Positions 42,829-63,612 of a stretch of 64,000 nt of DNA are shown in pieces. Position numbers and translations under genes: made by a program. Position 1 is the stretch's first letter; every line of letters begins with the position of its first letter. The stretch covers positions 100,798 through 164,797 of IMG/VR virus record IMGVR_UViG_3300026521_000466; one strand, given 5' to 3'. This DNA is from a virus. The notes beneath the pieces were generated by a model, which did no database searches, was not told the origin of the DNA, and saw nothing but the letters and a program-made list of their open reading frames with translations.

Positions 42829-45800
42829 TCATTGGCAACCTGAACAGGTAACAAAGTCATCCTGTGTCAATTCATCTATCTCTTCCGGGGATTTGCCTCT
42901 TGCATAGTAAATGCTTGATACACCTAAGTGTCTTGCATAATGATAGAGAATTCCCAAATCTCTTGTTGAGTTACTAATACCTGTATCTGGGAATAGGTTT
43001 CCGGATGGTGCTTGGTCAATCCATTGCTGCACCACAGCTAGGTTTTGAATAACTTTCATCTGATCTATCTCATATGCTGATTTATAGAACTTGATAGTGT
43101 TGATATTCAGGTCAGGTACCACTGATCTAAATTCACCAACGCTGGTCTTATCAGTATATACTCTTTTAAAGATAGGTTCTATGGACGGAGTAGTATTCGT
43201 GATAACAGCAATATTTGTAGTTGGAGCCACTGCCATAACATAAAGGTTTCTCATGCCTTTACTGGTTTTCTCTCTCAGTTGGTCCCAATCCATACTCCAT
43301 GGTCTATCCACTATCTTCTTGATATTCTCATTGGCAAAATCTACAGGCAATACTCCTTTTTCCCATTCACTGCCTTTGAATCCTGGGGCGACTCCTTTTT
43401 CAACAGCTAGATCGGCTGATGCCTGATATGCATAATAAGATACCCACTCCATAATCTGGTCAATACGTTGAAGTGCCTCTTTTGAACCAAACTCAAGTCC
43501 CTCTTTGGCAAGTAGATGATGCTCGCCCATAACACCAAGACCGATAGCTCTTGTCTTCATTGCATGTCTGAATGCACCGCCAACAGGATAGTAATTTATA
43601 TCGATGATATTATCGAGTGCTCTGATCATAATAGGTACAACTCTCTTAATATCCTCTTCAGTGTTTATCTTGGATATATTTAAAGAAGCAAGAGTACAGA
43701 CGAATATTTCATCATCTTCTATTTTATTCTCTGTGTACCCAATATTCACTCCTTTATAGAAATCATTTGGGGCCAGTTTGCTATATGGCCTTCCACTCTC
43801 TGATATATCACTGCCAAGCTCTTTACCTAAAAGTTTACCTTCCCTGTCATAAACGTATGTATAGAGCTCTCCTGCTTTCGCATACTGGCTTATTTCACAA
43901 CAGAGATTAGAACTATAGATAGTTCCGAGGTGTTTATTCATATGCCTCCTGTTCATCTCATCTTTATCAACGCAGTAAGGCTCACCGGATGTCAATGCTA
44001 TAGACATAATGCTGGTATAGAGATCAGCTGCTTTCACCACCTCTTTACTAATGGAACTTGAACGTTCATAATGTTCATACCTCTCTTTGAATTCATCTCC
44101 ATAGAGATCCAACAGATCGGTAACATCATGCGGATCAAACAGCGTCCATGTTTCATTGTTTCTAACTCTCTCCATGAAGAGTTTGTTCTCCCACATAGCA
44201 ATATTCATATCGTATGCTCTACGTCTTACATCACCTGTAGGTTTATGTAGCTCCAAGAACTCTTTAAAATCTTTGTTCCATGGCTCAAGATAGACTGCTA
44301 TTGCACCCTTTCTTGTATTGTGGGTTAGAAGATATCTATCTTTTCCTTCGTCTACACCAACATGCACGAAATAGTTATTATTATGTTCGATTGTATAGTC
44401 CACAAACACCTCATCACTATCACCACCTACTGTAAATATAACTTTCTCTTCACCAAGATTGGATATTGTAACTTCACCTTCTACCACCTCGTCAGCTCGC
44501 TTATATACAATATTACTATTCTCAACAATCGGAGTAGGATGCCATGCACTGGTAGTATAAGAACCAAGTGTCGTTGTGATTTCAGTTTGTGCTAGGGAAG
44601 GTACTCTTACGGTATGTTTAGAGACTAACTTCCTTACCTCTTTTTTACCAGTCTCATTGTTTAAAGACAACGCTAACATACCAGGTTCAATTTCAGAATG
44701 GTATAGAGGAATATATGTAATTGCACTTTCAATATCATCCATTGCATTTACAATATTGATAAGTTCTTCAATAGTTGGTTTATCTGCATTGTTGATATCT
44801 ATTTTCTCTGTTACTATAGTGAGATTTTTTAGATTGACATTATGGGTATTATTGTCTTTATGATAAACAAGTCCCTTTTCATATCCGAGATAAGTCAATG
44901 CCATAACTGTAGCAATGTAATACTTTTTCTCATCAATGCTTGCAGTCAATACTTTACCGCCTTTTGATAGTTTAGCAGGTACTGTTGCAAGAGTATATCT
45001 ATTTATCATAAGTCCAAACTCATTGATCATATAGTCTTCTAGTCCTTTAACTTTTATATCCGTAAACCCTTTTGGAAGATATCTACCATTAATTGCATTT
45101 GCTAACTCAGGAACATCCGCATCTATGGATCTGCCACATAGATATTTTTCTATCTTAAGCATCTTTTCATTATAATTTTCATCATTTTCATCAAGGATTT
45201 CACTTACTATATCAGATACGTAGTTATCTCTAGCATCGCTATATTTGACATAATATTTTTCTTCCCGCACATTGTATGTCACGCCATCAACTGTGATAGT
45301 ATCAATAATAGCAATACGACTATTACTAGAGACACACCCCAACTGGTCAAACTCTAACTGAATAGCATTCGTTGTAACTGCCAATGGAACAACACCGCCT
45401 GATGCTCCCGGTATACCATCAACTACAGAACCGTCAGTCCTGACAAAACCATCTGACCAACCGATGCCACCACCGAATTTACTAAGTATAGCCATTACAG
45501 TTCTTGAGTGCATGATTCCCTCTGCACTATCATGTGTTACACCGCCATAACAGCTATTCAGCTGACATCTGATACTTCTGGCATTTGCCAGCGTCGGAGT
45601 ACTGTGCATAAAGTTAAACTGAGATACTTCACTATAGTGTTGTTCTGCATAGTGTTCTTTAAGTCCGTCTGGTTCATTCTGCATTAAAACCATTGCTACC
45701 GACATAAAGACGAACTGTGGTAACTCAAAAGGCTCTTCGTTCACAGATTTAATATATCTCTGTCTAAATGTATAAGCACCTACATAACTGAACTGATCAT

Positions 45801-46203
45801 CTCTGTCATGTTTAATAGCTTTTGCCAATCTATCAAGGTCATAGCTCAAAAGAACTTTATCAAAGATGCCGTGTTCAACCCCATACTCTATATACTTTCT
45901 AAACGAAAGACCACCCAATGTTTTAGTAACTTGATGTCTAAGATCATAAAGAAACAATCTCCCTGCTAATACTGCATTGTCAACTGCATCAATATCAATA
46001 TCCAAAACAATGATCATAATCAGTGTTTGATGTATCTGCTCCGTAGTCATACCATCTTTGATATTCTCCATGAACTTTTTCATTATTGATGTCTTATCGA
46101 CATTTAGTTCATTAGAAGCATACTCTAAGAAACCATAGATTTTGTCTATGTTAAATGGTTCTACTCTACCATCCCTCTTTATTACATTGATTTTCTCTTT
46201 CAA
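42829..46203 (-). CDS. nrdA: Ribonucleotide reductase class I large subunit with intein
   Basis: The 1124-residue precursor starts at TTG (46203, AAAGGAC 6 bases upstream). It shows an ATP-cone N-terminus (about 5-90), Cys218 (NSCYGG), the active-site NLCCE (Asn766, Cys768, Glu770), Cys836 (VCTLASLNIS), the Tyr pair 1099-1100 for radical transfer and the C-terminal redox pair in TCSGCQ (1120, 1123). The normal chain is interrupted after FDQLG (289) and resumes at TRKGAIAVYLEPW (630), with a 340-residue intein between. The mature extein would be 784 residues, normal for NrdA. It is transcribed ahead of nrdB and divergent from the lysis cassette. Confidence 0.9.
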   Translation of the reverse strand: MKEKINVIKRDGRVEPFNIDKIYGFLEYASNELNVDKTSIMKKFMENIKDGMTTEQIHQTLIMIIVLDIDIDAVDNAVLAGRLFLYDLRHQVTKTLGGLSFRKYIEYGVEHGIFDKVLLSYDLDRLAKAIKHDRDDQFSYVGAYTFRQRYIKSVNEEPFELPQFVFMSVAMVLMQNEPDGLKEHYAEQHYSEVSQFNFMHSTPTLANARSIRCQLNSCYGGVTHDSAEGIMHSRTVMAILSKFGGGIGWSDGFVRTDGSVVDGIPGASGGVVPLAVTTNAIQLEFDQLGCVSSNSRIAIIDTITVDGVTYNVREEKYYVKYSDARDNYVSDIVSEILDENDENYNEKMLKIEKYLCGRSIDADVPELANAINGRYLPKGFTDIKVKGLEDYMINEFGLMINRYTLATVPAKLSKGGKVLTASIDEKKYYIATVMALTYLGYEKGLVYHKDNNTHNVNLKNLTIVTEKIDINNADKPTIEELINIVNAMDDIESAITYIPLYHSEIEPGMLALSLNNETGKKEVRKLVSKHTVRVPSLAQTEITTTLGSYTTSAWHPTPIVENSNIVYKRADEVVEGEVTISNLGEEKVIFTVGGDSDEVFVDYTIEHNNNYFVHVGVDEGKDRYLLTHNTRKGAIAVYLEPWNKDFKEFLELHKPTGDVRRRAYDMNIAMWENKLFMERVRNNETWTLFDPHDVTDLLDLYGDEFKERYEHYERSSSISKEVVKAADLYTSIMSIALTSGEPYCVDKDEMNRRHMNKHLGTIYSSNLCCEISQYAKAGELYTYVYDREGKLLGKELGSDISESGRPYSKLAPNDFYKGVNIGYTENKIEDDEIFVCTLASLNISKINTEEDIKRVVPIMIRALDNIIDINYYPVGGAFRHAMKTRAIGLGVMGEHHLLAKEGLEFGSKEALQRIDQIMEWVSYYAYQASADLAVEKGVAPGFKGSEWEKGVLPVDFANENIKKIVDRPWSMDWDQLREKTSKGMRNLYVMAVAPTTNIAVITNTTPSIEPIFKRVYTDKTSVGEFRSVVPDLNINTIKFYKSAYEIDQMKVIQNLAVVQQWIDQAPSGNLFPDTGISNSTRDLGILYHYARHLGVSSIYYARGKSPEEIDELTQDDFVTCSGCQ
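44317..45336 (-). mobile_element. Intein with HNH-type homing endonuclease inside nrdA
   Basis: Residues 290-629 of the NrdA precursor begin with Cys (CVSSNSRIAI) and end in THN followed by Thr, the standard splice junctions. The C-terminal block NYFVHVGVDEGKDRYLLTHN matches intein blocks F and G. In the middle, YHKDNNTHNVNLKNLTIVT (447-465) matches the HNH_3 pattern HHxDxxxxNNxxxNLxxV, although the first residue of the usual HH pair is Tyr. The insertion lies in the conserved DQxG segment of the reductase, a known type of intein site. Confidence 0.85.
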
Positions 46204-54539: not shown

Positions 54540-54567
54540 TTTACACTCCTTTTATTTGTATACGCCA

Positions 54568-54577
54568 TAATAATATG
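54568..54577 (-). promoter_or_regulatory. Variant phage promoter CATATTATTA
   Basis: Minus-strand CATATTATTA then TGGCGTATAC and AAAAGGAG before the start at 54539. It lies 3 bases beyond the terminator U run. Confidence 0.6.
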
Positions 54578-54579
54578 CA

Positions 54580-54620
54580 AATAAAAAAAGATACAGAACC
54601 CTCACTAGAGAGTCCTGTAT
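54580..54620 (-). terminator. Terminator of the large RNA unit
   Basis: ATACAG/CTGTAT outer arms (54591-54596 with 54615-54620), with additional pairing of CCCTC and GAGAG inside, are followed on the minus strand by CTTTTTTTATTTG. Confidence 0.8.
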
Positions 54621-54977
54621 GTATTGTCCATGGGTAGAGATAAATCTCTGTGGAGGAGCATATGTTGCTATACCCTAACTGGTCATCTGCAACGCCGGGC
54701 TCCTCCATCAAAATTTATTAATAGGATGTCCAGAGTCAATTCTCTGGTTAGGCAATTTATATCGCGTGTGCCTTACGGTCACGGGACGCTCCCTGCGAGT
54801 TGGGTTCCTATCTCCCACATCCTTATAACAACCGCTTGTAGCTAGCGGCCATTACCGGCTATTAGTGTATCAGCTACTTTCACTCTGCAACTACTAAACC
54901 GAAGTTTTCAATCACCACTCCACAACATATTAATAAATATGTAATATCTATGTAGTGAAACATCAGTATTTCATCGG

Positions 54978-55025
54978 GCCTCCCGATGGAATCGAACCAT
55001 CTTTGCGATACGACCTTGAGGAGGC
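54978..55025 (-). other. tRNA-like acceptor/T-arm minihelix
   Basis: GCCTCCT (55019-55025) pairs over 7 bases with GGGAGGC (54978-54984), with one G-U pair. A perfect T arm, GATGG-TTCGATT-CCATC, lies between. Only 17 bases fill the place of D and anticodon arms, and no CCA is encoded. It begins 6 bases after the CCA of the neighbouring tRNA. It is either a tRNA remnant with an internal deletion or a retained tRNA mimic. Confidence 0.6.
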
Positions 55026-55031
55026 ATAAAT

Positions 55032-55108
55032 TGGTGGGTTGTCAGAGACTCGAACTCTGGACCGCCCGGTTATGAGCCGGGAGCTCTGACCAACTGAGCT
55101 AACAACCC
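55032..55108 (-). tRNA. tRNA with CAU anticodon (elongator Met, or Ile if modified)
   Basis: A 77-base cloverleaf with a 7-bp acceptor stem beginning GGGTTGT, discriminator A and encoded CCA. D arm AGCTCAGTTGGTCAGAGCT; anticodon stem CCCGG/CCGGG with loop CTCATAA; T loop TTCGAGT. The G1-C72 pair argues against an initiator tRNA. CAU could also be tRNA-Ile2 if C34 is modified to lysidine. It lies inside the large RNA unit, so it is probably cut from that transcript. Confidence 0.95.
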
Positions 55109-55642
55109 AAAAAATAAGAACGGCTGTATTCTCCTAAGTCGGAGGTCACATATACACACCGTCGATGCATATGCCAAGTCATGTATTTAACCTTATAACG
55201 TACCAATCTTCTAACACTCATGACAATATGCGCGATTGGATTATTACGTGCCTCGGGACAACACCAATTGTCCATTACGTACCCTCCGAGTTTTTACCCG
55301 AGAAATCAGGAGGGTTTACGACGCCTAGTGTCATAGATACAATATCTATTATAATCACGAGTTACCTCAATGACCTTTTCGACTACTGAACAACAAGTGT
55401 ATTTCGCCGAACACCAGGAATTTTGCGTGCATCCGCACTACCACGTTTTCACATGGAGGAACTCACGATATCCCAAATGATAAACTTATACACAATGTGA
55501 TTTCGCTTATCATTCCCATAGACTGCTCACCATATCTATATAATAGACTTAGGCTTCTTTGTGTTTTACATATCTCTCCCTATGGCGAGTAGATATAACC
55601 ATTTTAAGTATTGGAACTAAACATACCTACATATGTTCACAT

Positions 55643-55652
55643 TAATAATATA
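55643..55652 (-). promoter_or_regulatory. Phage promoter core TATATTATTA for the large RNA
   Basis: Minus-strand TATATTATTA, then ATGTGAACATATGTAGG, located just after the tail-fibre stop (55680). No gene follows before the terminator at 54580. Confidence 0.7.
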
Positions 55653-55679
55653 CAAATAAAAATATTTGTAAATTAAAAC

Positions 55680-63054: not shown

Positions 63055-63104
63055 TTCAACTCCTTTTATTATATATAACTAATGACACTAAGCTTAAACC
63101 ACTA

Positions 63105-63114
63105 TAATAATATA
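63105..63114 (-). promoter_or_regulatory. Phage promoter core TATATTATTA
   Basis: Minus-strand TATATTATTA, TAGTGGTTTAAGCTTAGTGTC (a close variant of the leader element), start at 63054. Confidence 0.7.
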
Positions 63115-63120
63115 CAAAAG

Positions 63121-63500
63121 AAAAAAACCTCGTTCGCACGGGGAGTTTGCCTCGCGCACGCGCGCGCGTATAATAAGTACTGGTTCATCTTTTTACTTGC
63201 TAATTTTTTAACTCTCTTTTTTTAAATACTTTTTTACCCGAGAGATTTGTAGAGACGTAGTTCTACTACGAAGTCTCTACAAATTTATCTCTCTATTTTT
63301 CATACCTTTTTTGGATTATGTATTTAATGAACGAGTGAAAACGAGTGAATTAAATAGATAATCTTTTTTGGTCTATAAATATAACAACTTTTGGGGGAAA
63401 GGGGGTTAATTTTAGGAGGAGAGATGGGGTCTGGGGAAGAGAGGAACCCTTTTATCAGGGGGAAAGGGAAAAACAAAAAAAAGAAATAGACTAGGGACTT
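63121..63500. other. Gene-free region with inverted repeat, iteron-like repeats and G runs
   Basis: No credible gene. It holds a 12-base alternating CG palindrome ACGCGCGCGCGT (63158-63169) in a local GC-rich patch. A long inverted repeat follows (TTTGTAGAGAC with GTCTCTACAAA, about 63247-63284, with a GTAG/CTAC inner stem). Two direct copies of AACGAGTGA (from 63330 and 63340) are flanked by TATTTAAT and ATTAAATA. Runs of G (GGGGG twice, GGGG twice, about 63393-63440) lie on the plus strand. This is what a replication origin or packaging region might look like, but nothing proves it. Confidence 0.5.
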
Positions 63501-63504
63501 AATC

Positions 63505-63612
63505 TTAATCTGTAATGAGTGCAAACCCATACTGCACAATGAACTCATCCCTTTTAAGAGAAAGTATATTCTTATACTCCATATACCATGCCGTTATCTC
63601 TTTACTAATCAT
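63505..63612 (-). CDS. Small protein, 35 aa
   Basis: ATG at 63612 has ATGGAGTAGAACA upstream. The product MISKEITAWYMEYKNILSLK continues RDEFIVQYGFALITD to TAA at 63505. Codon texture and ribosome-binding site are as good as in neighbouring genes. No family recognised. It follows the 63-aa gene in the same direction. Confidence 0.6.
   Translation of the reverse strand: MISKEITAWYMEYKNILSLKRDEFIVQYGFALITD

Follow-up and report, generated by a model that had tools for sequence, protein, structure and literature searches.

GOLLD and ROOL RNAs assemble into nanocages, the former as a 14-mer and the latter as an 8-mer. According to cryo-EM, GOLLD is built from a 5′ and a 3′ domain with a disordered linker that is able to hold tRNAs, and one of its members is located downstream of a Met-tRNA (PMC12286853); the mycobacterial GOLLD includes a pseudo-tRNA (PMC6582537). 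ROOL is likewise a large phage noncoding RNA that is often encountered near tRNAs (PMC12286853). Phages ICP1 and K provide further examples, in the first case an RNA of ~800 nt within a 1-kb ORF-less space and in the second case one near tRNAs, neither of which belongs to a known family (PMC7567579, PMC9241854). For phiKZ, a nucleus-forming phage, Grad-seq has identified noncoding RNAs of ~100 and ~180 nt that are derived from UTRs (PMC8545117).

The locus considered here lies in a stretch of 64,000 nucleotides (called the window in the following; positions 100,798 to 164,797 of the IMG/VR virus record IMGVR_UViG_3300026521_000466). Its features, all of them on the minus strand, are collected in Table 1. 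In our reading, the locus probably encodes an autonomous large tRNA-bearing noncoding RNA of a phiKZ-like jumbo phage, a structural RNA akin to GOLLD and ROOL that would constitute a family separate from both. The region had been delimited correctly in the first-pass annotation of this DNA.

Table 1. Features of the 1-kb RNA gene (window coordinates).
Feature	Coordinates	Strand	Basis
Predicted noncoding transcript, ~1,050 nt	54591..55640	minus	promoter and terminator positions, absent coding potential; start placed to within some bases
Putative phage promoter TATTTGTATATTATTAATGTG, core TTTGTATATTATTA at 55656-55643	55638..55658	minus	repeated intergenic motif, common to related phages
5′ domain of 532 nt, structure moderately supported	55109..55640	minus	MFE z −2.4, predicted helices
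Hairpin CCAUGU-GAAA-ACGUGG, 6 bp, GAAA tetraloop	55441..55456	minus	sequence; pairing probability 0.99
tRNA-Met(CAU), CCA encoded, elongator-like	55032..55108	minus	ARAGORN and Rfam
Truncated tRNA-like element, acceptor and T-arm alone	54978..55025	minus	acceptor/T-arm descriptor scan
3′ domain, ~350 nt, best-supported structured part	54626..54977	minus	MFE z −4.2 without tRNA-like element and terminator
GUAA-loop hairpin GTGACCGTAAGGCAC	54768..54782	minus	motif scan
Intrinsic terminator, 13-bp stem, then T-run CTTTTTTTAT	54591..54620	minus	sequence
Promoter TTTGCATATTATTA for the next gene (54539-54021)	54568..54581	minus	motif scans

The window has PHROG matches to RNA polymerase beta (4e-86), a phiKZ-type DNA polymerase (2e-149) and PhuZ (2e-26), as well as one to the nuclear shell protein (E 1e-13), which is significant yet weak and partial. 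These four matches agree with the earlier suggestion of a nucleus-forming phage and place it in the phiKZ-like type. Alignment of the DNA polymerase gave 80 distant relatives in viral contigs, with a best identity of 30%, and none in genome contigs; the 172-aa neighbour protein, the shell protein and the ribonucleotide reductase returned no relatives as queries. With a DNA polymerase at most ~30% identical to those of known phages, the virus thus branches deeply. Part of its genome is probably missing from the record, the phiKZ-like records here being mostly 200-320 kb. As a separate observation, residues ~291-629 of the ribonucleotide reductase gene (42829-46203, minus) are missing from the homolog in the related record G053 and have an intein-like look.

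The interval 54540-55679 is the longest ORF-free gap of the whole 164,797-base record, and the G+C content of the RNA region is 42%, compared to 35% for the window. The motif found at its upstream edge, TTG[CT]ATATTATTA, has 10 copies in the window and 3 elsewhere in the record, all 13 on the minus strand. A weight matrix applied to the window yields 18 sites on the minus strand and 0 on the plus strand; because the matrix was trained on minus-strand sites of the same record, its score is partly circular, which holds less for the strand bias. The same motif occurs in related records, and a search of viral contigs with it gave phages whose DNA polymerase is ~30-32% identical. Its repetition, its confinement to the minus strand and its recurrence in related records make it most likely that TTTGTATATTATTA is the phage's own promoter. 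At the other end, the terminator is followed directly by the promoter of the next gene, and from this order of promoter, RNA, terminator and promoter it follows that the unit cannot be read as the leader of an mRNA or as a 3′ tail. The promoter and terminator that had been ascribed to the region can thus both be located, and from these observed signals we infer that a stand-alone noncoding transcript is very likely produced.

The middle of the predicted transcript is occupied by a tRNA-Met(CAU), which is the sole tRNA of the record. The CAU tRNA had been noticed before, and both ARAGORN and Rfam recover it; it forms a complete cloverleaf with 69.3 bits to RF00005, and its acceptor and anticodon stems read, in our own judgement, as elongator-like. 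A second element, which had been overlooked, starts 6 nt past the tRNA. It has a 7-bp acceptor stem and a perfect 5-bp T-arm with the canonical UUCGAUU loop, while 17 nt replace the D and anticodon arms, so that a complete cloverleaf is not formed. When the acceptor/T-arm descriptor was run over the phage and its relatives (~1.0 Mb in total), this record yielded only the true tRNA and the truncated element, and the matches outside it were real tRNAs or weak chance matches.

The folding energy of the whole RNA corresponds to an MFE z of −6.3 relative to 60 dinucleotide shuffles, and 120 further shuffles averaged −289.8 (sd 8.7) where the RNA itself reaches −341.6; the tRNA and the terminator contribute to these values. 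Without these two parts, z is −2.4 for the 5′ half and −3.5 to −4.2 for the 3′ half, compared to −0.72 ± 1.18 for coding controls, which puts the 5′ half just ~1.4 sd under the controls. GNRA or UNCG hairpins occur four times on the minus strand of the RNA region (1.2 expected, P ~0.04) and not at all on the plus strand. The GAAA hairpin singled out in the first-pass annotation is real, and the GUAA-loop hairpin has GTGACCGTA in common with a loop conserved in two further structured elements of the phage, a match of weak significance. A closing helix of 9 bp is predicted between nt 118-126 and 1007-1015 (55523-55515 with 54634-54626). A confident long-range helix of equal length is present in 11% of the shuffles, and with the tRNA removed the pairing between the 5′ and 3′ halves is not stronger than in shuffles; both were rejected as proof of a global fold, since shuffles match them. 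The z values and shuffle tests taken together thus leave the 3′ domain well supported as structured and the 5′ domain moderately so, and do not yet support the global architecture.

Other structured sequence is present in the window. A ~190-nt intergenic RNA element occurs in two copies that are 78% identical (~3430-3200 and ~62670-62430, both minus) and for which no Rfam match was obtained. It folds as a three-way junction with the loop GACCNUAGGA on both hairpins, and ~10 pairs are changed on both sides between the copies, a comparison of two sequences only. Its loop has GUGACCGUA in common with one hairpin of the 1-kb RNA. There is also an ORF-free structured gap at 63083-63611 (z −4.1 on the plus strand), where a GC-rich hairpin occurs along with a long inverted repeat.

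Apart from its tRNA, the RNA had no sequence relative among 50,697 phage records or among 64 IMG/VR records that were related or shared the promoter, and blastn of the RNA against 50 polymerase-related records returned tRNA matches, the promoter and short chance matches, and nothing else. The promoter motif, used as a fingerprint, led to the related records G053-G055, in which no homolog of the RNA was found. With a second promoter pattern, most matches were due to chance and lay in coding sequence; two distant relatives (G060 and G064) came out as well, and the RNA was not found in these either. G053 does contain a 1.04-kb ORF-free structured region (L131 17450-18490, z −4.6 on the plus strand). 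In the window the RNA is preceded by a fibre-like gene, and G053 has a distant homolog of that gene a few genes away from its ORF-free region. This region was rejected as a counterpart, being without a tRNA and without sequence similarity, and no tRNA-bearing counterpart of the 1-kb RNA was found in the related phages examined.

Stand-alone units of a shorter kind were observed in G054 (L143 3166-3400) and G055 (L139 3751-4130), where a promoter, a structured RNA of ~200-330 nt, a hairpin and a promoter follow each other. Their z values are −5.8 and −4.2, respectively, and their sequence is unlike that of the 1-kb RNA. In G055, moreover, the RNA polymerase gene is split by a ~1.3-kb stretch that lacks ORFs and contains two conserved blocks resembling each other (L139 2225-3540); this interruption looks intron-like, yet no Rfam intron model matches it.

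Rfam identifies the tRNA alone in the region, and matches below the gathering threshold (Plastid-ycf2, mir-4012 and others) were rejected as tRNA-shaped or due to chance. The first-pass annotation had likened the RNA to GOLLD and ROOL and proposed a search with their covariance models; the search was made, and neither model matches. For GOLLD, the model RF02032, which represents the conserved 3′ region, covers 416 positions and is without a positive control here, gives no match at E 5 in the region or at E 10 in the record. The ROOL model RF03087 also gives none in the region, even at permissive thresholds, and this model does find the copy on the L. salivarius plasmid pMP118 (130 bits), a plasmid that carries an abundant long noncoding RNA (PMC5643018). 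Applied to 50 related or promoter-sharing records, the two models gave 0 matches, the sensitivity of the GOLLD one being unmeasured.

The likeness to GOLLD therefore concerns the layout and not recognisable membership. Both RNAs are phage-borne and longer than 800 nt, and the layout published for GOLLD likewise runs from a 5′ domain through a tRNA-bearing middle to a 3′ domain; they differ in that a sequence or covariance-model match is absent, and GOLLD was not found in this phage group by the RF02032 search. In the case of ROOL there is also the difference in size, env-120 having 659 nt compared to ~1,050 here. The ICP1 and K RNAs, unlike the present one, are expression-proven, ICP1 is without tRNAs, and no sequence relation of either to this RNA was found. 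From the phiKZ RNAs, finally, it differs by its ~1-kb length and by having its own promoter and terminator.

Several other explanations of the locus have to be weighed. That it contains one or more small protein-coding genes is highly improbable. The region had been described as holding no credible gene, and the longest ORFs are indeed of 74 and 73 aa on the plus strand and 58 aa on the minus strand, with every ORF of at least 30 aa falling below the 5th percentile of the codon usage of the phage's own genes. The 58-aa ORF (55275-55099) is preceded by GGAGGG, as a gene might be, but this sequence belongs to a predicted 7-bp helix and the ORF terminates within the tRNA. A very divergent GOLLD, belonging to the same cage-forming family with a sequence past the reach of the Rfam model, would account for the equal order of parts, the similar domain sizes and the association with tRNA-Met (PMC12286853). 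We consider this very unlikely, as RF02032 remains unmatched at permissive thresholds, also in the 50 related or promoter-sharing records, although this carries the caveat on sensitivity given above.

The main competitor is a long pre-tRNA and nothing more, with its own promoter and terminator, functionless flanks in which other tRNA or protein genes have decayed, and the truncated element as a dying tRNA. A truncated tRNA 6 nt from an intact one is what decaying tRNA arrays look like, tRNA arrays are present in related phages, and no homolog was found that shows conserved flanks. Against it speak the raised G+C content, the z of −4.2 for the 3′ domain with neither tRNA nor terminator, and the restriction of the tetraloop hairpins to the minus strand; ~1 kb of useless transcribed DNA would also be unusual in a record that is otherwise compact. 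On balance, we regard this explanation as unlikely, although it deserves more weight than the two preceding ones.

Our preferred reading, a separate family of large tRNA-bearing RNA, draws on the promoter/terminator/promoter arrangement, the ORF-free gap, the G+C content, the folding, the tetraloops, the tRNA elements and the GOLLD layout. What counts against it is that no homolog and no tRNA-bearing counterpart were found, that the closing helix and the 5′/3′ pairing are within chance, and that the 5′ half is weak. Of the new large RNA class envisaged in the case that GOLLD and ROOL did not apply, the autonomous ~1-kb noncoding tRNA-bearing transcript is supported; the class itself stays a candidate, because no homolog was found and because shuffles equal the predicted global fold in its closing helix and in the pairing between the halves. 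The RNA is accordingly a candidate for a new family of the same kind as GOLLD and ROOL.

As to how such an RNA might work, the phage RNA polymerase would initiate at TTTGTATATTATTA and be stopped by the intrinsic terminator. It is likely that the tRNA is then processed out of the transcript, and host RNase P would most likely make two cuts, one on the 5′ side of the tRNA and one on the 5′ side of the truncated tRNA-like element. For recognition by RNase P an acceptor/T-arm minihelix suffices as the minimal shape, and the truncated element has this shape. The products would be the tRNA with 6 nt of trailer and two remaining pieces of ~530 nt and ~435 nt; alternatively, the tRNA may stay tethered. 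The flanking domains probably have a function of their own and, by analogy with GOLLD and ROOL, would most likely serve as structural or scaffolding RNA in infection. That the RNA forms a homo-oligomer or a cage is doubtful at present. Still more speculative is the full picture of a new large ornate RNA class, in which the 5′ and 3′ domains oligomerise as a particle and RNase P cuts at both tRNA shapes to give a two-piece RNA and a freed tRNA.

As GOLLD and ROOL show, phages produce structured RNAs of giant size in the vicinity of tRNAs. The truncated tRNA-like element offers a concrete and testable hypothesis for the processing of such an RNA. If the RNA described here is a separate family with a GOLLD-like layout in a nucleus-forming phage, it would suggest that such RNAs have been put to use repeatedly and independently, and it would provide a fresh system in which to study the role of the embedded tRNA.
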